Under the pieces are notes generated by a model that was given only the letters and a program-made list of their open reading frames with translations, had not been told where the DNA came from and searched no databases. From Bacteroidaceae bacterium (GTDB taxonomy: Bacteria > Bacteroidota > Bacteroidia > Bacteroidales > Bacteroidaceae), in assembly GCA_017471185.1 (NCBI GenBank), contig JAFUVZ010000064.1:1-54017 (forward strand): a DNA stretch of 54,017 bases, written 5' to 3'. Both the position numbers and the translations under genes were made by a program. Within the stretch, counting starts at the first letter, position 1, and the number at the start of each line of letters is the position of its first letter. Positions 1-9,578 of this stretch are shown in pieces.

Positions 1-273
1 CTCACATTCAGATTCCGACAACGTGCGCCTGAAAATTGGCAGTTCCCTTGTATCGTCAATCGTTTGCCGAGGTTCATCTCCCACTGTCAGGAAGCGGATA
101 CGGAATGCCGGGCAGGTGGCATAGATAGTCCTGAATGCCTGTTCCAGGCGGTCAAGGTCAATACTTTTGGGTAAAGAAGTCATGTACCCTAAGTTGTATT
201 GTGTCATCTGCGGATGCTGCATCATCTCCACGAAGATGCCCATCTGCGACTGTGATAGCGGATATGTCTTCAT
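1..273 (-). CDS. Non-ribosomal peptide synthetase, N-terminal condensation domain (partial)
   Basis: The first 91 codons of a protein that runs off the left edge. It opens with MKTYPLSQSQMGIFVEMM, the usual start of an NRPS condensation (C) domain (YPL-x-x-x-Q-x-x-x-F). A typical C1-region pattern follows: YNL, then LDRLEQAFRTIY, then a PAFRIRF segment matching the family's 'H-x-x-L-R-x-R-F'. C domains form the peptide bond between carrier-bound aminoacyl groups. Starting with a C domain suggests either an acyl-capped product or an upstream partner. The ATG at 273 is the only plausible start because an in-frame stop lies at 304-306. The gene follows the TolC-like gene by 47 bp on the same strand and is probably the last or near-last part of that operon. 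Modules, substrates and product cannot be judged from this fragment. Confidence 0.85.
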   Translation of the reverse strand, partial: MKTYPLSQSQMGIFVEMMQHPQMTQYNLGYMTSLPKSIDLDRLEQAFRTIYATCPAFRIRFLTVGDEPRQTIDDTRELPIFRRTLSESECE

Positions 274-320
274 CTCTTTTTGGGGGGATGGCTTTTTTGC
301 CCATTACCTGCTAAAAAAAC

Positions 321-1667
321 CTATTGCGCATAAACGTCTAAGATCTTCTGCCTGATGATGAACTCATATTTGGCTTGCACGGCATTCTCTCTGGCCTCAC
401 GAAGTCGTTGGGTGGCTTGGGTAAGGTCGTATATGGTGCTGCGGCCTGCCTCATATTTGTCAGACTCATAGCTGTACGCTATTTCGCAGGCATCCTGAGA
501 CTTCTGCGCTGACAGGTACCTGTCTTTTGCATCAAGGGCATTATAGAAGGCCTGGTCAATCTCCTTGCGCAGTCTCTGCTGTGTATCGCTCAATTGTAAC
601 TGGCTTTGGGTAAGCTGCATCTTGGCGCGGCGAATCTCGTTGCGCGTTGAGAAACGGTTAAAGATGGGCATTGTGAGATGAATGCCTAACAGCTCACTCT
701 TGTTCTTGTTAAGTCTGCTGAAGAACGGACCTTCACCAGGACCTTTGAAAGGCTTGAAATAGTATGTGTTGAGCGACGCACGGAAGTCAATGCGAGGGTA
801 ATAGCCCGCACGGGCTGTCTCAATGTCAAATTTACTCCGCTCCACGGCTGCTTGTGCAGCAACTACAGCTGGATGTGTCTCAGAAGCATCAGTATAAAGG
901 TCAATAGGGTTCAGCAGTTCCTGGCCAAGTGCCCTCTCATCATCTATGTCGGCGATTGAGAAGCCATCCTTGCTGGGTAGGTTGAGCAATTGTGATAAAG
1001 AGAGTAGGGCGATATTGGCCTTGCCTCTGCAGGCTGTCAGGTTATACTCATCTGTAGCTAATTGAGCCTCAGCGTCAGCCAGGTCACTTTTCGGACTTTT
1101 GCCGTCTTCCACCAACGCATGGGTCTTTTCGCACAGGCGGCGACTGGCCTCCACCTGCGCTTCAGCCACCTCAGCCATACCTTGTTCATACAACACCTGT
1201 AGGTAATAAGTGGCCACTTGTATGGTTAGATTCTTGTGCGCATGGTCTAACGAAGCTACAGCCTCCTTTACAGACCAGTCGGCTGAACGCTGGCGGTTTT
1301 TACGCAGAAAACCATCAAACAGAGGCATCTCGACATTCAGGGAGCCACTGGTATATGACAGGTTGGCATCAAAAGGCTCTGTGGCCATGACACCCGTTGA
1401 AGCTGAAGCATTGCCAAAACTGAATTGCTGTGCTGCCGTGAACTCGATTGTAGGCAGCCAGTCGTTTTTGGCAGTGTTAAGACTGTTTTTGCTCAACTCC
1501 ACCTCTATCTCTCTCTTCTGGAGGTCAATATTGTTCTCACGGGCATATTGGAGACAATCGTCAAGTGTCCAAGGCTGCTGGGCATTTGCGGTAAAGGCTG
1601 CCAATAGCATGGGGATTACCACTGAGATACGTTTCACATCTCCCCTAAAACTCTTCAATGTCATCAT
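321..1667 (-). CDS. TolC-family outer-membrane efflux channel
   Basis: A 448-residue protein with a signal peptide ending near the AFTANAQ segment (about residue 29), then WTLDDCLQYARENN, the conserved opening of the outer membrane efflux protein (OEP) family. Two long helical halves rich in Gln, Ala and Arg follow, as expected of the TolC duplication. TolC homologues trimerise into an outer-membrane beta-barrel with a periplasmic tunnel. The gene lies 19 bp after the HlyD adaptor gene and 47 bp before the NRPS gene, so it is probably the exit duct for the adjacent ABC exporter. Start choice: two adjacent ATGs at 1667 and 1664; the first is used. Family assignment is strong; the cargo is inferred from context only. 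Confidence 0.9.
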   Translation of the reverse strand: MMTLKSFRGDVKRISVVIPMLLAAFTANAQQPWTLDDCLQYARENNIDLQKREIEVELSKNSLNTAKNDWLPTIEFTAAQQFSFGNASASTGVMATEPFDANLSYTSGSLNVEMPLFDGFLRKNRQRSADWSVKEAVASLDHAHKNLTIQVATYYLQVLYEQGMAEVAEAQVEASRRLCEKTHALVEDGKSPKSDLADAEAQLATDEYNLTACRGKANIALLSLSQLLNLPSKDGFSIADIDDERALGQELLNPIDLYTDASETHPAVVAAQAAVERSKFDIETARAGYYPRIDFRASLNTYYFKPFKGPGEGPFFSRLNKNKSELLGIHLTMPIFNRFSTRNEIRRAKMQLTQSQLQLSDTQQRLRKEIDQAFYNALDAKDRYLSAQKSQDACEIAYSYESDKYEAGRSTIYDLTQATQRLREARENAVQAKYEFIIRQKILDVYAQ

Positions 1668-1686
1668 ACTTCTGGTCTTTTACGGA

Positions 1687-2787
1687 TTATTTCAGGTTTC
1701 CACGTAGCAGCTCACCGGCCTTAACCCCATCTTTCAGCTCTATGTAGTAACCGTCGGAGAGGCCAACGTTGACTGACCTGCGTTCAAACTGTTGATGTTC
1801 CTCATCGTCAGGGTCAGAAACGAGTACATACACGTAAGCGTCATCTCCATCGAACTCTATGCATGTTTCGTCACATGAGAAAGAATTGGAGACCTTGTCT
1901 AACAAAATGGATGCGGAGGCACTATAGCCAGAGCGGATGGTGACATCAGCCGGTACATGAACGGTTCCTTCCAGTTTAAACATCTTCGCTCCGTTTCTTA
2001 ACTCACCTTCCGGTGATATATATTCGAGTTTGGCAGGTAGTGACACTTCTTTGATCGAACCTAACGTAAGCTGCATATCCATACCCTCATGGAGCAGGTT
2101 AACCTGGGTCTCGTCAATGTAGCCTCGGAATATGATGTCGCTCATATCAGCTACCTTGGCAACAGTGGTTCCCTCTGTATAAGCACTGGTGCCAGAGACG
2201 GATGTACCTTCCTTTACAGGCACACTGAGCACCAATCCGGAAATCGTGGAACGCAGGTCGGTGGTGCTGACACTACCCGAACGGGCCGACTGCCCGCGTT
2301 TGATTACCTCCACTTGCGACTCTGCCCCTTTAAGGGATTCTTGAGCTGAAGCCAGTCTGGCTTCTTTCTGCTCATATTCCTCACGGCTCACTACGCCTTT
2401 TTCGAAGAGTGACTTCAGGCGGTTGAACTCACGTTCCTCCTCCCCGAGTATGATACGTGCCGCTTCCACCTGATTAAGCGCTTCATTGAGCTGCGCCATG
2501 TCAGGGATGATGCGGATGGTGGCCACCAGGTCACCCACTTTTACATAATCACCTGCTTTTACCAAAAGCCTGCCCACTACACCTGTTGCCAGCGGTTTCA
2601 GCTCCACTTGGTCGCGCGCTTCTAAAGTGCCAGTGGCTGTCGCCTTCTTCACAATGTCACGTTGCTGGGGAGAAACCAGTTCATACACCACTGGCTCCGG
2701 TTGCGATTGCTCCCAGAGGAAGTAGAATGTGTATAGCACAAAAAAAGCTACCAGTACCCATCCCGTTGTTTTCAAAACCTTCTTCAT
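1687..2787 (-). CDS. HlyD/MacA-type periplasmic adaptor
   Basis: A 366-residue membrane-fusion protein. One N-terminal transmembrane segment lies at residues 7-24. The first half-lipoyl segment follows (near TGTLEARDQVELKPLATG), then an alpha-helical hairpin at about 80-165, the second lipoyl half (STISGLVLSVPVKEGTSV) and a beta-barrel domain. MacA-like adaptors link a MacB permease to a TolC channel and stimulate the ATPase. It sits between the permease genes (36 bp upstream) and the TolC-like gene (19 bp downstream), which completes a tripartite exporter. No Cys lipobox is seen, so it is anchored by its N-terminal helix. Confidence 0.9.
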   Translation of the reverse strand: MKKVLKTTGWVLVAFFVLYTFYFLWEQSQPEPVVYELVSPQQRDIVKKATATGTLEARDQVELKPLATGVVGRLLVKAGDYVKVGDLVATIRIIPDMAQLNEALNQVEAARIILGEEEREFNRLKSLFEKGVVSREEYEQKEARLASAQESLKGAESQVEVIKRGQSARSGSVSTTDLRSTISGLVLSVPVKEGTSVSGTSAYTEGTTVAKVADMSDIIFRGYIDETQVNLLHEGMDMQLTLGSIKEVSLPAKLEYISPEGELRNGAKMFKLEGTVHVPADVTIRSGYSASASILLDKVSNSFSCDETCIEFDGDDAYVYVLVSDPDDEEHQQFERRSVNVGLSDGYYIELKDGVKAGELLRGNLK

Positions 2788-2823
2788 ATTTATAATTCTT
2801 TAGTTTTATATCTTAAATTGGCA

Positions 2824-4074
2824 TTATTCTTCTCTAAGTGCATCGATTGCCTTAATCTTCAAAGCATTCCGTGCAGGAAGCCACCCGGCGAAAAGCCCAC
2901 CTGCAATCAAGATGAGCAATGAGATTACCGCTGCCCAGAACGGCATGTACGGATGATAGAAAGTGTCGTTCTCCACATTACCTATCATATTGTTCACTAT
3001 TTGTAATAGAATGACTCCTAAGCAAAGTCCGGTAAATCCCGAAATGGATGTCAGCACTAAGCTTTCCGTCATGATTTGCCGGAGAATGGTGGATGGCAAA
3101 GCCCCCAATGCCCGGCGGACACCAATTTCCAACTTGCGCTCCTTCACACTGATGAGCATGATGTTGGAGATACCTATCAATCCTGCCAGCAGTGTACCCA
3201 ACCCTACAATCCATATCAGGATATTTATTCCCGAGAACAAGCCACCGTATTGATTGATCATTTCTTCAGTTGTATATGAATACAAAGCCATGGTGTCATC
3301 GGGATGAATTGAATATTCCTCCTTAACCAGTGCCACAGCTTTCGAGGCAAGTTGCTGGATAGGCTTTCTTTGGTGGAAGGCCACCATACACAAATCTAAA
3401 TCGCCCTGTTTCCCGTATGTCGCCAGTTCTGTGGGAAGCGGCATCAGTACACTTGCGGAAAGATCGAACCCCGCATATATCGAGTTATTTGATTTCCTGA
3501 CAATGCCCACTACTTCCAGCATCATTCCATTCACTTCCACCGTGTTGCCTAACGCCTGGTCATAATTATCGAATAATGCAGTCGCTACGTTTTGCCCCAA
3601 AAGACACACCATGCGTTGCTCACGCATGTCTATCTCGTTGATAAACCTGCCTTTTAAGATTTTCATCGGGCTGGCAGAATGATATTCGGGCGACAAGCCA
3701 ACTACATCATAGAGAAAAACCTTCTCTCCGTGCTTCACCTCTTGCAAACCGGCTAAGCTGACAGACGATATATAATCCACATCCCCCTGCAACTCTTGCT
3801 TTATCTTTTCCTCAAAGCCTGTTTTTAAATACCATTTTCTGCCGCTTTCCATGCCCTTATACGGCAGGGATGTCTGGTCGGGTGCCATGAACAGGAGGTT
3901 GGCAGGTACATTCGTCACGCTGTTGACGACGCCATTGTTAAGCCCCATGCCTGCACCTATCATGACCGTCAGGATGAAAATACCCCAGAACACACCGAAA
4001 GCCGTCATCAGGCTCCTGGTGCGCTGCTCCATGATAGTCTGCCAAATCTCACTCCAATAATCAGAATTAAACAT
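2824..4074 (-). CDS. MacB/FtsX-type ABC transporter permease (second copy)
   Basis: A 416-residue permease with the MacB layout. An N-terminal transmembrane helix (GVFWGIFILTVMIGAGMG) is followed by a large periplasmic MacB_PCD domain and three C-terminal helices of the FtsX domain, including the conserved ERKLEIGVRRALGA coupling segment. It has no ATPase domain, unlike E. coli MacB, so it must use the separate ATPase encoded upstream in this operon. It is paralogous to the preceding permease (9 bp away), which suggests a heterodimer. MacB-type transporters act as mechanotransmitters that push periplasmic substrates through TolC. Nothing odd was seen in its length or motifs. Confidence 0.9.
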   Translation of the reverse strand: MFNSDYWSEIWQTIMEQRTRSLMTAFGVFWGIFILTVMIGAGMGLNNGVVNSVTNVPANLLFMAPDQTSLPYKGMESGRKWYLKTGFEEKIKQELQGDVDYISSVSLAGLQEVKHGEKVFLYDVVGLSPEYHSASPMKILKGRFINEIDMREQRMVCLLGQNVATALFDNYDQALGNTVEVNGMMLEVVGIVRKSNNSIYAGFDLSASVLMPLPTELATYGKQGDLDLCMVAFHQRKPIQQLASKAVALVKEEYSIHPDDTMALYSYTTEEMINQYGGLFSGINILIWIVGLGTLLAGLIGISNIMLISVKERKLEIGVRRALGALPSTILRQIMTESLVLTSISGFTGLCLGVILLQIVNNMIGNVENDTFYHPYMPFWAAVISLLILIAGGLFAGWLPARNALKIKAIDALREE

Positions 4075-4083
4075 AGCTCTTCT

Positions 4084-5325
4084 TTATCTTGCATTCAATG
4101 CTTCTACCAACTTTATGTCAACCGCCCGTCTGGCAGGCGCATAACCGGCCACCAATCCTGCCACCAGCATGATGGCGTTGATGCCCATGACTATAGAGAA
4201 ATCAACAGTAGGATGCTCAAACACGCCGTTGCTTCCCAACTCTCCCAAAAACCACGATGCCAGCTGCGTGAGTCCGATGCCCAAGAACATGCCTATATAG
4301 CCGAAGATAACAGTGATGATGACAGACTCCACCAGTACGAGTGAAATAATCTGTATCCTGGAGGCTCCCATCGCACGCCTCACTCCCAATTCTCTGGTCC
4401 GTTCCTTAACGGTAATCAGCATGATGTTAGAGATGCCTACCACACCTGAAACCAGCGTGGCCAGTCCTATAATGATTACAAAGAAACTGATTCCTGTCAG
4501 AATGTTATTTATCCAAATTGGGTCTTCGTAATAATTGCCTATAGTGACCGCCTTGACATCTGTGGGGGCAAAAGACTTCATGCCACCTAATGTCTGTAAA
4601 AGCCGGGTGTTGAAAGCTTCGTTCAGTTCTATGGTTGTCAGGTGATCCACTTTCAGGTGAAGTTCGTCCAAATGCCTTTCAGGACGGAATATAGCTGTCA
4701 TGGTTGACAAAGGGCATATAATGGAATTGTTGATTTCTGTAGCCACTTTGGTGTCTGACACGCCTATAACCTCGAAATCGATATCATTAAGCTGAACATG
4801 CCGTCCTATGACAGAGCCACTGACATTCTGGAACAAGAGCTTTTTGATAATAATCGGGATAATGCATACTTTTCGCTTTTCCTGTATATCTCTGCTGTTG
4901 ATGTCACGGCCTTCTATGATTCGTGTGTTGGTAGCCACGTCATAGCCAGGGGTGGTTCCTTTAGTAGTGATTTTGCTGGTATATGCCCCCTGATGTATCA
5001 CCAGCGACTCATTAATGACAGGAACCACTGCAGGGATGGTGTCACCCCAAAGTGACTGCAGGTAATAGCCGTCTTCCTCATAAAGTCTGACAGGCTGTCC
5101 TTTCTGTTGTCCCTGAAAACTGATAGAGGTTTCTCCAGGAGTCAGTCCAACCACATTGTTGCCCATCAGTTCGAAATCTGAAGTTATGCCATTTACCAAC
5201 CCGTTTCCCGATCCGATGAGTACGATGAGGATAAAGATACCCCATCCTATGGAGAATCCTGTAAGCGCTATGCGCGTCCGGTTGCTTTTCATGGCGATGA
5301 AGACCTCTGTAAAAAAATCTCTCAT
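4084..5325 (-). CDS. MacB/FtsX-type ABC transporter permease (first copy)
   Basis: A 413-residue permease with an N-terminal helix (GFSIGWGIFILIVLIG), a MacB periplasmic domain, and three C-terminal helices with the FtsX signature ERTRELGVRRAMGAS. Its ATG (5323-5325) overlaps the TGA stop (5322-5324) of the ABC ATPase gene as ATGA, so the two are probably translationally coupled and expressed in fixed ratio. The paired permease genes plus one ATPase imply an asymmetric transporter. The cargo is not visible in the sequence. Proximity to the NRPS suggests export of its peptide product, or self-protection. Confidence 0.9.
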   Translation of the reverse strand: MRDFFTEVFIAMKSNRTRIALTGFSIGWGIFILIVLIGSGNGLVNGITSDFELMGNNVVGLTPGETSISFQGQQKGQPVRLYEEDGYYLQSLWGDTIPAVVPVINESLVIHQGAYTSKITTKGTTPGYDVATNTRIIEGRDINSRDIQEKRKVCIIPIIIKKLLFQNVSGSVIGRHVQLNDIDFEVIGVSDTKVATEINNSIICPLSTMTAIFRPERHLDELHLKVDHLTTIELNEAFNTRLLQTLGGMKSFAPTDVKAVTIGNYYEDPIWINNILTGISFFVIIIGLATLVSGVVGISNIMLITVKERTRELGVRRAMGASRIQIISLVLVESVIITVIFGYIGMFLGIGLTQLASWFLGELGSNGVFEHPTVDFSIVMGINAIMLVAGLVAGYAPARRAVDIKLVEALNAR

Positions 5326-6929
5326 ACTACCGGCCCCCTTTCATCCCTAAATATCGTTCCGTCCTTCAGGAAGATGCGACGGTCTGTCTGGTCGGCTATC
5401 TCCTGCTCATGCGTAACTATGATAACCGTTTGCCCTTCCTTGCGGTTTACTTCACGCAACATGTTCATCACTTCCTGTGTTGTCTTTGAATCAAGCGCAC
5501 CTGTAGGCTCATCAGCCAGGATAATCTTCGGGTGCTGTATCAGGGCACGTGCGATGGCCACACGTTGTCGCTGGCCTCCAGACATTTCCATGGGCTTATG
5601 GTTCCAATGAGCACCCAAGCCTACTTTTTCCAGATATTCCATCGCCAGCTTGTTTCTCGTCTCACGATCTACTCCTCTGTAGGTGAGAGGCAATGCCACA
5701 TTATCGAGCGCATTCTTGAAGTTGATGAGGTTAAAGCTCTGGAAAATGAAGCCAATCATATCATTGCGCAAAGTAGCTTGCTCATCCTCTGAAAGGTTCT
5801 TGATGAGGTGTCCGCCAAGATGGTATTCCCCCTCATCGTAGTCGTCAAGGATGCCAATGACATTCAGCAGTGTTGACTTTCCTGAACCGGAGGCACCCAT
5901 GATGCTCACTAACTCTCCCTCATGTATATCCAAATCCACGCCTTTGAGCACATGTAGCGGAGAAGCTCCCTGATAAGTCTTGTGGATGCCTTTCAGACTG
6001 AGAATAGCTTCGTTCTTCTCCGTGTCTGACTGCATTGACATGAGCTTCTCCATGGAGATACCCTCCTGTTTGTGATACTGGTTTTTCGAATCATCGGTAT
6101 GCCAGGTCAGAGTGGTCACATTCTGCCTATACATTCTCTTATAATCTATAAGAGGGCATAATGATTTAACAAGCAGCGTCTCCAGCTTCAACTCGTCATT
6201 GTCAGCTGCTGTCGGGTTGAAATGCTTGCCATCATCTATCAGTATGACCCTAATCTTTTCTCCTGCATGTGAGATATGCAATTCAATTGAGTTTGCCTCG
6301 CTTTCCTTGCCAGCTCTTGAGGCTATGATTTCCAGAAGGCTTTCAGTGCAAAGTTCAATGTTGTAGGCCAGGTTTGCCGTCCCCAATTCCATTAACTTCA
6401 CAAATTGATGTACCTCTGAAAGAGAGTTGTTCACTTCTTGCTGGTTGGCTGGTATCAAGATATCCAGCTTGTGCTGGTATGGTTTAACTTGTGGGTATAG
6501 CTGAAGCAAGCCCGTGTTGGAATGATGGCGATGAACCAACAGCCACTGGGCGATTAATGGCAACAAAACGAGACATGGAATTAGCAGCAGTGAGACGGCA
6601 ATAGAAACATGGAGCGCTAATGAAATCAAGATAAGCAATGCCAATGTGAGTGACACTGCCTGCAAGCAACGTATGAAAAGAATCCTCATACCTTTGGCGT
6701 TTCTTTGTAAGGATAACATGTGCCCGGAAGAGCTGATGAGCAGGGTAGCGGCAATTGACACCAATGCACCCACTGATACCAGGCTGTAAGCCATACTCTG
6801 TCTTGGTGTAATGTATCCTGATAGCCAACATGCTGCAATCAAGCCAAACAGGCATACGGCTGTAGCCAGGGTCGCAGTCGTGACATACGACCTAATGGCA
6901 TTATTTACCAGTTTCGTTTTCTGTATCAT
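5322..6929 (-). CDS. ABC transporter ATPase with N-terminal membrane and HATPase-like domains
   Basis: A 535-residue protein about twice the size of a normal MacB-type ATPase. Residues 15-135 hold about four hydrophobic helices. Residues 150-278 resemble an RsbW/anti-sigma HATPase domain: a helix around TESLLEIIAS in the N-box position and a D-box IDDGKHFNP at 231-239. The N-box Asn appears replaced by Glu200. Residues 303-535 are a LolD/MacB-class ATPase with Walker A GASGSGKST (345-353), signature MSGGQRQR (449-456) and Walker B IILADEP (469-475). An ATG at residue 293 could yield a separate ATPase, but the frame is continuous. It follows the MATE gene by 10 bp and overlaps the first permease gene. 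The ABC part is certain; the HATPase assignment is from motif reading. Confidence 0.85.
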   Translation of the reverse strand: MIQKTKLVNNAIRSYVTTATLATAVCLFGLIAACWLSGYITPRQSMAYSLVSVGALVSIAATLLISSSGHMLSLQRNAKGMRILFIRCLQAVSLTLALLILISLALHVSIAVSLLLIPCLVLLPLIAQWLLVHRHHSNTGLLQLYPQVKPYQHKLDILIPANQQEVNNSLSEVHQFVKLMELGTANLAYNIELCTESLLEIIASRAGKESEANSIELHISHAGEKIRVILIDDGKHFNPTAADNDELKLETLLVKSLCPLIDYKRMYRQNVTTLTWHTDDSKNQYHKQEGISMEKLMSMQSDTEKNEAILSLKGIHKTYQGASPLHVLKGVDLDIHEGELVSIMGASGSGKSTLLNVIGILDDYDEGEYHLGGHLIKNLSEDEQATLRNDMIGFIFQSFNLINFKNALDNVALPLTYRGVDRETRNKLAMEYLEKVGLGAHWNHKPMEMSGGQRQRVAIARALIQHPKIILADEPTGALDSKTTQEVMNMLREVNRKEGQTVIIVTHEQEIADQTDRRIFLKDGTIFRDERGPVV

Positions 6930-6939
6930 TTTTCTTTAC

Positions 6940-8697
6940 CTATTTCTTTATATTAAGATACAAGCAGTTGATTCCGTTGAGGTATTTATAGTTCACTTCG
7001 TCACAAATGCCCTGTATCATCATGATTGACAAACGGTCTTCGTCTATATCTTCTATATCTCCCGGCTTGTAACTAACCAACGGGTTATAAGCTCTGCCAA
7101 CATCCTTCACGATGATAGTGAATCGCTCGGGCTCATCAATCACATTTACATCAAACGTACCCTCTTTCTGTTCTTTGACTCCCATTTCATATTGGTTAAT
7201 CATCACCTCCTCCAGACTGTGTTCAACAGACTTCATCCGTTCCTCATCCAAGTCGAAGATACTAATGTAGAAAAGGAGGTCTTTCAGTTTCTGCTGAACG
7301 TCATTGAAATCATATTTTACGCTTACGGCATGGGAATCGACGCATCCAATGAGTGGGGTCAGATATAGCCAATGGGTCAATTCCTTCCGAGACAAATAAT
7401 AGGAGATGCCAATGCAGCAAATCATGAGCAGCCACATACCGATAGGGAGGGATTCCCAGAGGTAGGAAGGGTTCACATAGGATACTGCCAAGGCTGGCAA
7501 CAGGATGAACAGAATCATGCCTACCTGGACGGCGGATGACAAAAAGCCCTTATCAATGACCACGTAAATCTCACTGAGAAGAGATACCACAACCACAGGA
7601 ATCAATATCAGGCTAAACATCCTCAAAGGTTGCTCAGACACGGCAAGCAGGGCTTCATCGGCTCCAAAGACACGGGCCATTATTGAAGGAAACAGGAATA
7701 ACACAATGGTGGATATGACTGTTCCTCCCACCATGATTCTGCTGATGCTGTCGAGCAGACGGTTCAAGCCTGCCCAGTCTTGCTCACCACATAACACACC
7801 ACCTATTCCACTGATAGCGCTGCCGGCGCCACCGGTAATGAGGAAACTCAGAGAGAGGGTCTGCAGGCACACACTGAGGATGAACATGCCATCGGCACCC
7901 TGGGTGTTTAAGACAATGGTATTCATGCCCAAGAACAAGACAATCATCGCAATGTTCCCAACCACATCGGGCAATCCGCGGATCATGCATTTCCCCAGTA
8001 CATTAGCCGACTTGCTGGCTTGAAGAAGGTGGAACTGGAAAGGCTGGGGACGTTTTTTCAAATAAGGAACAAGGGTAAGCAAGCCTGCCAAGGCACTTAA
8101 GGCAGTGGCAATGGCAGCTCCTTTCATTCCTCCGTCAAGGACAACCACAAGCAGCAGGTCGAGCAAGATGTTTGCTGCGGAAATAGACAGAAGGCACATC
8201 GTCACCAAGCGAGGCTTACCGCTGATTTCCACGAACTGGGTTAAGCAGAAGAGTACAATCATCAACACGTCTGCGATAAAGGCAAATGGCAGGTAGTCAA
8301 TCAATAAAGGAAGCAAGCGATCCTCGTCGGTAAGCAGATGGGCGATAGGTTCGGCCAGCGTACCCAATAAAAGTGCCAGAAGACCATTGATTAAGAATAT
8401 ACTGACCAGGCTGACGGTAAAGATGTTATTGACCTTCCCATATTGCTGACTGCCGAATGCCGGTGCCATGAGCAAGACGGCGCCAGAAGTAATGAAAGAA
8501 CCGACAAGTGTGACAATCCACGATATGGGGTAAGCCAGCGTGACAGCCGATATGGCATCTGCTCCTACTGCGTTACTTACGATGATACCATCAATGGTGT
8601 CGTTGAGCTGGTTGACAATGGAGCTCAAAACAGCTGCTACGAGATAGACTCGCAGAGAATGATTTATGATGTATGAATTTCTTTCTTCAACTTTCAT
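6940..8697 (-). CDS. MATE-family exporter with C-terminal RsbW-like HATPase domain
   Basis: 585 residues from the ATG at 8697. A longer frame begins at 8802, but its extra 35 codons cross the promoter and are not hydrophobic. Residues 12-440 form about 12 transmembrane helices with a MATE pattern (NDTIDGIIVSNAVGADAISAV). Residues 453-585 are soluble and match an anti-sigma/serine-kinase-type HATPase: N-box LEEVMINQ (Glu496, Glu497, Asn501), D-box KDVGRAYNP (Asp532-x-Gly534) and a C-terminal IQGICDEVNYKY segment typical of the RsbW fold. MATE proteins export cationic or peptide-like compounds using H+ or Na+ gradients. It is the first gene of the operon leading to the NRPS. What the ATP-binding domain senses or phosphorylates is unknown. 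Confidence 0.85.
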   Translation of the reverse strand: MKVEERNSYIINHSLRVYLVAAVLSSIVNQLNDTIDGIIVSNAVGADAISAVTLAYPISWIVTLVGSFITSGAVLLMAPAFGSQQYGKVNNIFTVSLVSIFLINGLLALLLGTLAEPIAHLLTDEDRLLPLLIDYLPFAFIADVLMIVLFCLTQFVEISGKPRLVTMCLLSISAANILLDLLLVVVLDGGMKGAAIATALSALAGLLTLVPYLKKRPQPFQFHLLQASKSANVLGKCMIRGLPDVVGNIAMIVLFLGMNTIVLNTQGADGMFILSVCLQTLSLSFLITGGAGSAISGIGGVLCGEQDWAGLNRLLDSISRIMVGGTVISTIVLFLFPSIMARVFGADEALLAVSEQPLRMFSLILIPVVVVSLLSEIYVVIDKGFLSSAVQVGMILFILLPALAVSYVNPSYLWESLPIGMWLLMICCIGISYYLSRKELTHWLYLTPLIGCVDSHAVSVKYDFNDVQQKLKDLLFYISIFDLDEERMKSVEHSLEEVMINQYEMGVKEQKEGTFDVNVIDEPERFTIIVKDVGRAYNPLVSYKPGDIEDIDEDRLSIMMIQGICDEVNYKYLNGINCLYLNIKK

Positions 8698-8724
8698 GTA
8701 CTTCTTTTTGTAATTTATATGTGG

Positions 8725-8732
8725 CAAATATA
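8725..8732 (-). promoter_or_regulatory. Bacteroidetes -7 element for the MATE-NRPS operon
   Basis: TATATTTG on the minus strand fits the Bacteroidetes sigma-ABfr -7 consensus TAnnTTTG exactly. It lies 28 bases upstream of the MATE ATG, so it probably drives the whole exporter-NRPS operon. No convincing -33 TTTG was found at the expected spacing. Confidence 0.6.
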
Positions 8733-8775
8733 AACAATAATCTGAAGAATTAAAAATATTAAGGTTATAAATTAC

Positions 8776-8783
8776 TATATTTG
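8776..8783 (+). promoter_or_regulatory. -7 element for the K+ channel gene
   Basis: TATATTTG matches TAnnTTTG and lies 21 bases before the channel ATG at 8805, which implies a very short leader. It is divergent from the MATE promoter, with about 43 bases between the two -7 elements. It also shows that the TTG at 8781, inside the element, is not the start. Confidence 0.6.
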
Positions 8784-8804
8784 CAGCGGAAAACGGAATC
8801 ACTT

Positions 8805-9578
8805 ATGACAATTAGAGAAAGAATTAATGATATGATAGGGACTAAGAGTAATCATCTCTATTCCCGTATCTATGACTGGCTGATGCTGCTGATGATAGCC
8901 GTGGGTATATTCCCTCTGATGTTTAGAGAGACGAATGCCACATTCTTATTGATGGATTGGATTTCAGGTATCTGTTTTATCATTGACTATATCTTCAGGT
9001 GGATGACGGCAGACCTTCGTTCTAAACGTAAACCCTGGGTAGCTTTCGCGATATATCCGTTTACGCCGATGGCAATCGTTGACTTATTCTCTATCCTGCC
9101 TACTTTCAATGTGTTAGGGTCAGCGTTCAAAGTGGCGAGGGTGTCCCGTCTGCTTAGGATTCTGCGAGTGGTGAAAGTCATTCGTTACTTCGAACCATTG
9201 GAGATTATTCTGGCTGTGGTACGTCGCCAGAGTAAAATTCTCTGCACGGTGCTTTCGTTGGCTGTGTTCTATGTGTTTGTCACAGCTCTCATCATGTATA
9301 ATGCCGAACTGGAAGTAAACCCTGAGACTGGGGAGTATGTGTTTGAGAATTTCTTTGAGGCGTTCTATTGGTCAGCCTGTACACTGACTACCGTGGGATA
9401 TGGTGATTTTTATCCTGTCTCCCAAACAGGACGAATCATCAGTATCATCTCTGCTATCGTGGGCATAGCTATCATAGCCCTGCCGTCAGGTATCATGACG
9501 GCAGGCTATATGGATGAGCTTAATCATCGGAAGGAACAGAAGGAGAAGGAGAAACAGGACGCTGCATCAGCCTCTTGA
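8805..9578 (+). CDS. Voltage-gated-type potassium channel (ion_trans family)
   Basis: 257 residues from ATG 8805. It has six transmembrane helices, an S4-like segment with regularly spaced Arg/Lys (ARVSRLLRILRVVKVIRYF), a pore helix, and the K+ selectivity filter TVGYGD within TLTTVGYGDFYPVS. A charged Lys/Glu-rich tail ends the protein. No RCK or cyclic-nucleotide domain follows. It probably passes K+ across the inner membrane in response to voltage. The last 59 bases overlap the 3' end of the convergent pseudouridine synthase gene. It has its own promoter and is probably not part of the divergent NRPS operon. Confidence 0.92.
   Translation: MTIRERINDMIGTKSNHLYSRIYDWLMLLMIAVGIFPLMFRETNATFLLMDWISGICFIIDYIFRWMTADLRSKRKPWVAFAIYPFTPMAIVDLFSILPTFNVLGSAFKVARVSRLLRILRVVKVIRYFEPLEIILAVVRRQSKILCTVLSLAVFYVFVTALIMYNAELEVNPETGEYVFENFFEAFYWSACTLTTVGYGDFYPVSQTGRIISIISAIVGIAIIALPSGIMTAGYMDELNHRKEQKEKEKQDAASAS

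Follow-up and report, generated by a model that had tools for sequence, protein, structure and literature searches.

The operon described here lies at the start of a 54,017-nucleotide stretch of DNA from a Bacteroidaceae bacterium and associates a non-ribosomal peptide synthetase (NRPS) with two exporters, i.e., a MATE protein and a tripartite pump of the MacB type. The synthetase and the pumps are of known kinds. Pumps of the MacAB-TolC kind are widespread; they share with the present exporter the ATPase, two MacB_PCD/FtsX half permeases, the adaptor and the OEP channel. The present exporter differs from them by an ATPase fused to hydrophobic stretches and to a HATPase-like domain, and by ATPase and permeases that stand as separate genes. 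RsbW-type proteins, which resemble a domain carried by the MATE protein, gate sigma factors. As for the synthetase, NRPS clusters of rumen Bacteroidaceae and Prevotella have been published in bulk (PMC8241843): the enzyme class is the same, the organisms are related, and the nearest NRPS found is that of P. ruminicola KHT3. The passages of that work on these clusters give counts and expression and name no product, and the word «transporter» is absent from its text. The gut dipeptide-aldehyde NRPSs, e.g., that of ruminopeptin (PMC12327764), are also small and come from gut anaerobes, and a reductase domain closes the synthetases of two related loci considered below, G352 and G057; KHT3 differs from them by a probable thioesterase end. 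A narrow search of a partial literature gave no paper on the product of this cluster, on exporter HATPase domains or on the cassette swap described below.

The window, i.e., the whole stretch analysed, is the entire contig C35 of genome G000, an 80% complete assembly in 85 contigs. Taken as a whole, the locus is rather probably an NRPS cluster for the synthesis and export of a small peptide, with exporters tagged by HATPase domains and a tripartite exporter drawn from another lineage. Seven minus-strand frames, all co-directional, are present in window 1-8697 (open reading frame list and Pfam). They code, in this order, for: (i) a MATE exporter with a C-terminal, RsbW-like HATPase_c_2 domain (6940-8697; domain at 6955-7257); (ii) an ABC fusion (5322-6929) made of hydrophobic stretches, a degenerate HATPase_c_2 domain (6102-6452) and a MacB-type ABC ATPase (about 5322-6008); (iii) and (iv) two MacB-type half permeases (4084-5325 and 2824-4074; MacB_PCD and FtsX for both); (v) a periplasmic adaptor of the HlyD/RND type (1687-2787; HlyD_D23/HlyD_3); (vi) a TolC-like outer membrane channel (321-1667; OEP); (vii) the first 91 residues of an NRPS with its N-terminal condensation (C) domain (1-273; Pfam), cut by the contig end. 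The gaps from MATE onward are 10, −4 (an overlap), 9, 36, 19 and 47 bp. The frames, the Pfam matches and the measured gaps agree with the seven-gene layout of a first-pass annotation of this DNA. The complete tripartite exporter of that annotation is also found, since ATPase, MacB-type permease, adaptor and outer membrane channel are all matched by Pfam. The HATPase_c_2 domains of the MATE and ABC genes were absent from it.

These exporter-borne HATPase domains are the most unusual feature of the cluster and a new point. The window MATE contains two MatE stretches (PF01554, 4.7e-24) and belongs to the MATE family; its HATPase_c_2 match (2.4e-10, 41.0 bits) is well above the Pfam cut-off of 27.4. 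We take the HATPase_c_2 family to be linked to RsbW-type proteins. Nine related NRPS-linked MATEs end in the same manner. With the RsbW/SpoIIAB anti-sigma kinases the MATE domain shares, besides the Pfam match above cut-off, the D-x-G motif (9/10 copies of the alignment) and, in most copies though not in all, the N-box Asn (window MATE and 7 of the 9 related MATEs, i.e., 8/10). It differs from them by its junction to exporters, by a missing ATP-lid segment and by an operon without STAS gene. This segment, with its GG, is present in two non-MATE HATPases of the same alignment. HATPase_c_2 matches in genome G000 amount to three: the MATE, the ABC fusion and a stand-alone protein on contig C8.

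The ABC fusion gene has 535 codons and the MATE frame 585, and both frames are intact. The hydrophobic stretches of the fusion lie at residues 14-43, 45-70 and 81-135, the third being long enough for two helices. Its HATPase_c_2 match is below the Pfam cut-off of 27.4 (E 0.0021, 18.5 bits). The comparison with the MATE-borne domains gives an hhalign probability of 96.7, a BLASTP E-value of 5e-15 against the G352 MATE, and 84.6 bits (E 4e-28 for one sequence) against a hidden Markov model of the ten MATE HATPase domains. At the sequence level the ABC-borne domain is firmly homologous to those of the MATEs. Six out of six related ABC genes have a stop 1-13 codons upstream of the ABC start; the HATPase-ABC fusion is thus seen only in the window among the seven ABC genes compared. 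The HATPase piece scores higher against the G352 MATE than against the window's own MATE, the other MATEs not being compared singly, and it would fit a remnant brought in with an exporter cassette. A MATE origin of the N-terminal membrane part of the fusion is unsupported (8.1 bits vs. 7.7 for the best of 200 shuffles). Among NCBIfam models, the darobactin exporter ATPase DarD (NF038007) gives the ATPase part its lowest E-value, but at 238.9 bits for a cut-off of 375 it is not a member of that family.

A MATE search of genome contigs gave two relatives with 56-57% identity, in P. ruminicola KHT3 (locus L014) and in the metagenome-assembled genome RUG12352 (locus L013). Their common order is ABC - permease - permease - adaptor - TolC - MATE/HATPase - NRPS. 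The same parts, i.e., MATE, NRPS and the ABC/permease/permease/adaptor/TolC set, are found in six other genomes, namely these two and G581, G885, G586 and G669. In the last four the exporter genes come after the NRPS, with the ABC gene 16, 16, 7 and −4 bp downstream, respectively (the TolC frame of G885 is cut at the end of the stretch examined, and the G669 contig ends after the permeases). Among the loci compared, only the window has the MATE first, the exporter next and the NRPS last, and the distance between MATE and NRPS is −4 to 63 bp in the eight relatives measured. Since these parts come back in six further genomes, arranged in two different gene orders, the window's cluster is, as judged from gene content and order, a rearranged member of a cluster family; this cluster family extends from KHT3 and its genus to one further family of the taxonomic order. 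The first-pass annotation had proposed that an NRPS goes with both a tripartite exporter and a MATE, a secreted peptide product with putative self-protection, and a search for the same gene order elsewhere. The combination of parts is supported by its recurrence, though as one of three orders and not as an isolated layout; the window's own order recurs in none of the genomes compared. Secretion of a peptide is a fair inference, and the interpretation as a whole is partly supported.

Within KHT3's genus, 145 of the 398 genomes match the first C domain of KHT3 at E<=1e-30; the loci compared are the 20 best-ranked matches after KHT3 and RUG12352. A MATE/HATPase gene directly precedes the NRPS in six of these 20 loci (G581, G885, G586, G841, G669 and G601). 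MATE queries reached, besides the window, the MATE-HATPase loci of KHT3, RUG12352 and G352, and an NRPS adjoins each of them. Altogether ten MATE/HATPase proteins were found (window included) with an NRPS in every locus, but seven of these ten loci were reached through the NRPS or are the window itself, and only KHT3, RUG12352 and G352 are free of this bias. In the window's own genus, the MATE query at E<=1e-40 gives 3/148 genomes, own included, the other two matching in the MATE part only; the C-domain query gives 4/158, own included, the others being 25-30% identical. There is no close copy of the cluster in that genus among the 148-158 genomes searched. An order-wide MATE search at E<=1e-60 gives 2/393, own included.

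The proteins of the window do not have the same nearest relatives. The identities to KHT3 vs. G581 are 90 vs. 45% for the NRPS start, 57 vs. 31% for MATE, 42-43 vs. 54-56% for the permeases (44-46% to KHT3 by another aligner), 53 vs. 68% for the adaptor, 42 vs. 59% for TolC and 80 vs. 83% for ABC. In a tree of the five exporter proteins the window groups with G581 (support 100/100), and its grouping with KHT3 and RUG12352 is rejected by the approximately unbiased (AU) test (p-AU 1.6e-50). In the MATE tree the window groups with KHT3 and RUG12352 (100/100), and its grouping with G581 is rejected (p-AU 1.2e-7). The groups submitted to the AU test were chosen after the identities had been seen, the window exporter branch is long, and the trees cover the exporter proteins and the MATEs, not the 91 NRPS residues. 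The comparison shows that the tripartite exporter of the window stems from another lineage than do its MATE and its NRPS. Since the trees and AU tests place the exporter with G581 and the MATE with KHT3, the insertion of a G581-like exporter cassette between MATE and NRPS seems the simplest account, and the window's gene order looks secondary. This probable cassette swap is the second new point, beside the exporter-borne HATPase domains. It suggests that exporters and synthetases recombine as blocks and bears on the prediction of which pump serves which peptide.

The NRPS start matches the condensation family PF00668 over model positions 3-88 of 456 (3.5e-13, 49.5 bits for a cut-off of 30.6), and over its 91 residues it shares 90% identity with the beginning of the KHT3 NRPS, which continues with C and adenylation (A) domains. 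The opening with a condensation domain, claimed at first pass, is confirmed by both results, and the concern that the 273-bp frame might be a short unrelated condensation-like protein is, on these 91 residues, not borne out. The H-x-x-x-D-G motif is present in 8/8 NRPS relatives checked; its position falls beyond window residue 91. The proposed extension of the contig to the left did not succeed: searches of G000 with condensation, AMP-binding, carrier and KHT3-NRPS queries gave no assignable continuation. An AMP-ligase near the start of contig C9 was discarded as a candidate (30% identity, among FabH-, ACP- and SDR-like frames). The KHT3 and RUG12352 contigs both end within the NRPS gene. A second KHT3 contig, C39, starts inside an A domain and runs from there through a carrier (T) domain to a thioesterase-like (TE) end with GHSFGG; its A half resembles, by eye, the first A domain of RUG12352. 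The KHT3 A domain matches solved A domains. Put together across these two contigs, the KHT3 NRPS is probably C-A-T-[C]-A-T-TE with a piece missing.

The identity of the NRPS start was compared with a host baseline, i.e., 35 window proteins and three contig C8 proteins searched by tblastn (E<=1e-10) against 1.23 Mb of KHT3 (0.86 Mb in an initial run). Thirteen proteins matched: six at 47-79% identity that are collinear and form an NQR-type operon (Pfam identified two of them), two others at 65% and 46.5%, and five with weak, short or paralogous matches. The 90% of the NRPS start, over 91 residues only, exceeds the eight credible host-protein matches (46-79%). Across the same residues, the members compared outside the window/KHT3/RUG12352 trio are 36-64% identical. 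Because 90% is above both ranges, a recent exchange of the NRPS start between the window and KHT3 lineages is suggested, on these 91 residues. KHT3 seems to belong to another genus than the window, since the 158 genomes of the window's genus contain no KHT3-like match besides the window's.

Several points weigh against the reading of the locus as a whole. No MATE-HATPase was recognised in 14 of the 20 NRPS loci, several of which are cut by contig ends. The window NRPS is readable for 91 residues only before the contig end. The thioesterase scores are below the Pfam cut-off in all four genomes where a match occurs, and the GHSFGG-type motif of KHT3 is absent from G885, G586 and G669. No STAS or SpoIIE gene is found by Pfam among the seven proteins of the window operon, and such genes adjoin only some of the related clusters. 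The HATPase domains themselves are also atypical: the ATP-lid segment is gapped in 10/10 MATE copies and in the ABC copy, the N-box Asn is replaced by His in the KHT3 and RUG12352 MATEs and by Ile in the ABC copy, and in the comparison with G352 no other part of the MATE is as poorly conserved as the HATPase (21% vs. 26-30%). Because of the gapped lid and the replaced Asn, several exporter HATPase domains may be no kinases, but merely partner-binding or structural. The same defects would be expected of decayed relics carried by fusion without function. We consider such a decay rather doubtful, since the HATPase has the highest identity of all MATE parts both in the window-KHT3 comparison (66% vs. 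47-59% for the other parts) and in that of KHT3 with RUG12352 (94% vs. 74-83%), and since it is retained in ten MATEs, some of them only 26% identical to each other.

The tripartite exporter could be an ordinary MacAB-TolC multidrug pump placed by chance before the NRPS, only the MATE belonging to the synthetase; the abundance of such pumps and the distinct ancestry of the window exporter speak in favour of this. It is nevertheless unlikely, because six further genomes have these exporter genes, unchanged in their internal order, next to the MATE-NRPS pair and at two other positions (in G669 only ABC and permeases are visible before the contig end). Moreover, the nearest exporter relative among those compared, that of G581, is itself cluster-linked, a one-sided argument in so far as only NRPS-linked exporters were sampled. 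An artefact of metagenome assembly might have produced the MATE - exporter - NRPS order or the HATPase-ABC fusion: the genome is fragmented and incomplete, its contig ends in the NRPS, the arrangement is a single copy, and a frame break between the C and A domains of the RUG12352 NRPS may be of the same kind. Intact frames over 535 and 585 codons, normal spacing and junctions within one 54-kb contig make this quite improbable. As regards the product, a peptide aldehyde of the gut C-A-T-C-A-T-R type (R, reductase; ruminopeptin/pyrazinone family) instead of a thioesterase-released lipopeptide is suggested by the G352 NRPS, which belongs to a MATE-HATPase cluster and ends in a reductase domain, and by G057 and G022 of the window's genus, whose NRPSs of about 2,420 residues stand beside a MATE without HATPase part, the domains of G057 fitting C-A-T-C-A-T-R. 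Such an aldehyde is nonetheless very unlikely here: the window NRPS start is 90% identical to that of KHT3, which probably ends in a thioesterase, and G057, G022 and G524 have C domains that share only 25-30% identity with the one of KHT3.

Under the favoured reading, i.e., a peptide cluster with tagged exporters, the families involved suggest the following scheme. The peptide would be made in the cytoplasm by the NRPS, whose first condensation domain would N-acylate the first residue; a thioesterase would then release the peptide, to judge from the sequence of KHT3; the MATE would carry this product, or a precursor of it, through the inner membrane, and from the periplasm the tripartite pump of the MacB type would export it. 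An AMP-ligase gene stands beside the related clusters of G581, G586 and G841, and none is seen in the window. Because of this AMP-ligase beside relatives and of a first C domain placed before any A domain, the peptide is probably N-acylated, with the acyl chain on its first residue.

Partner-switch genes are found near several relatives. In G841, STAS, AMP-ligase, MATE-HATPase and NRPS genes are co-directional and, when the longest frames are taken, lie 47, 13 and −4 bp apart in what looks like one operon. In G352 (a 94% complete genome), the sole SpoIIE match is a gene of the Cache-type SpoIIE/HATPase kind, which follows the NRPS after a gap of 32 bp. G885 has a SpoIIE gene about 4 kb upstream; G057 has a Cache-type SpoIIE/HATPase gene near its reductase-ended NRPS, and G022 a HATPase match at a like place. 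In G000 itself, contig C8 codes for the stand-alone RsbW-like protein and for a STAS protein, and contig C9 contains one SpoIIE match. Since partner-switch genes adjoin some relatives, the exporter HATPase domains could be one side of a switch: by analogy with RsbW-type proteins, we tentatively propose that they may serve as a switch on the cytoplasmic side, where the binding of nucleotide or of a STAS partner would gate export. If so, a switch known for sigma factors would work on pumps too, and the signal for peptide secretion would be traceable through the STAS and SpoIIE partners. A more speculative extension, which we regard as unlikely, is that the family controls secretion and not only transcription, the RsbW-like exporter domains being engaged or released by STAS proteins that are set by SpoIIE-type phosphatases. 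The exporter would then open only upon a sensed signal, and the window would be a doubly tagged version, obtained from a HATPase-bearing cassette inserted between MATE and NRPS. Gating and swap could both be tested in KHT3, since it is a named strain.

Other transporters occur next to such genes. On contig C8 of G000 (L124 2138-4777), RsbW-like HATPase, CitMHS/TrkA_C transporter and STAS genes stand in a row with gaps of 0 and 21 bp; as read from the sequence, this is another transporter linked to partner-switch parts in that genome. On KHT3 contig C39 (L059 9492-15016), about 7.5 kb after the NRPS end, there are STAS and Cache-HAMP-SpoIIE-HATPase genes and, divergent from them, a fused amino-acid ABC transporter; its C-terminal 138 residues resemble by eye a degenerate HATPase domain, with no such match in Pfam.

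Further biosynthetic genes were seen in the genomes compared. KHT3 has a second NRPS (C-A-T) on contig C16 (L023 2282-14949), preceded upstream by genes for a TonB-dependent receptor, for histidine-kinase-like proteins and for a response regulator that contains a SpoIIE domain. RUG12352 has on contig C43 (L024 5345-14027) an NRPS with the domains A-T-C-A-T-TE; a gene for a TonB-dependent receptor comes after it, which gives the locus a siderophore-like layout. Contig C9 of G000 (L126 210-5532) carries, by eye, FabH-like, ACP, AMP-ligase, two SDR and acyltransferase-like genes in one direction, adjoining a glycosyltransferase-like frame. The frame break of the RUG12352 NRPS lies at L013 13040-13070, where KHT3 has about 30 more residues; beyond it, the RUG12352 A domain shifts by eye from likeness to the first A domain of KHT3 to likeness to the later one. 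Assembly collapse or recombination would account for this switch. Before the exporter of RUG12352 (L013 3620-4150), a frame resembles by eye the start of a type I restriction methylase, of which KHT3 keeps only a short remnant (L014 4160-4260); the cluster may have been inserted at this methylase-like frame. Plasmid origin of the window was also considered, and window 1-9000 has no megablast match among 72,556 plasmid records.

As regards control signals, the MATE start is taken as the ATG at 8697, which matches the start of the relatives and the end coordinate of the first-pass annotation (the longest frame begins with GTG at 8802). The minus-strand element TATATTTG at 8725-8732, 27 bp before this ATG, is an exact TAnnTTTG, a Bacteroidetes -7 consensus. 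It is the sole minus-strand copy outside genes in 1-8800, the three others (827, 3391 and 7152) being intragenic, and an exact-motif scan finds none in any gap between operon genes; the single upstream element of the first-pass annotation thus holds. A terminator and a separate promoter between TolC and NRPS, which would have split the operon, are not borne out by site scan or folding: there is no minus-strand terminator-like or sigma-70-like site inside this gap and no minus-strand terminator-like site in any intergenic gap of the operon, the terminator-like site at 270-291 has the plus-strand orientation, and the RNA of the gap does not fold better than shuffled sequences (z 0.18 and 0.75). 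Back to back with the operon's own -7 element, a plus-strand TATATTTG lies at 8776-8783. It may drive the divergent ion-channel gene at 8781-9578, in which case the true start of that gene would be downstream of the listed TTG.

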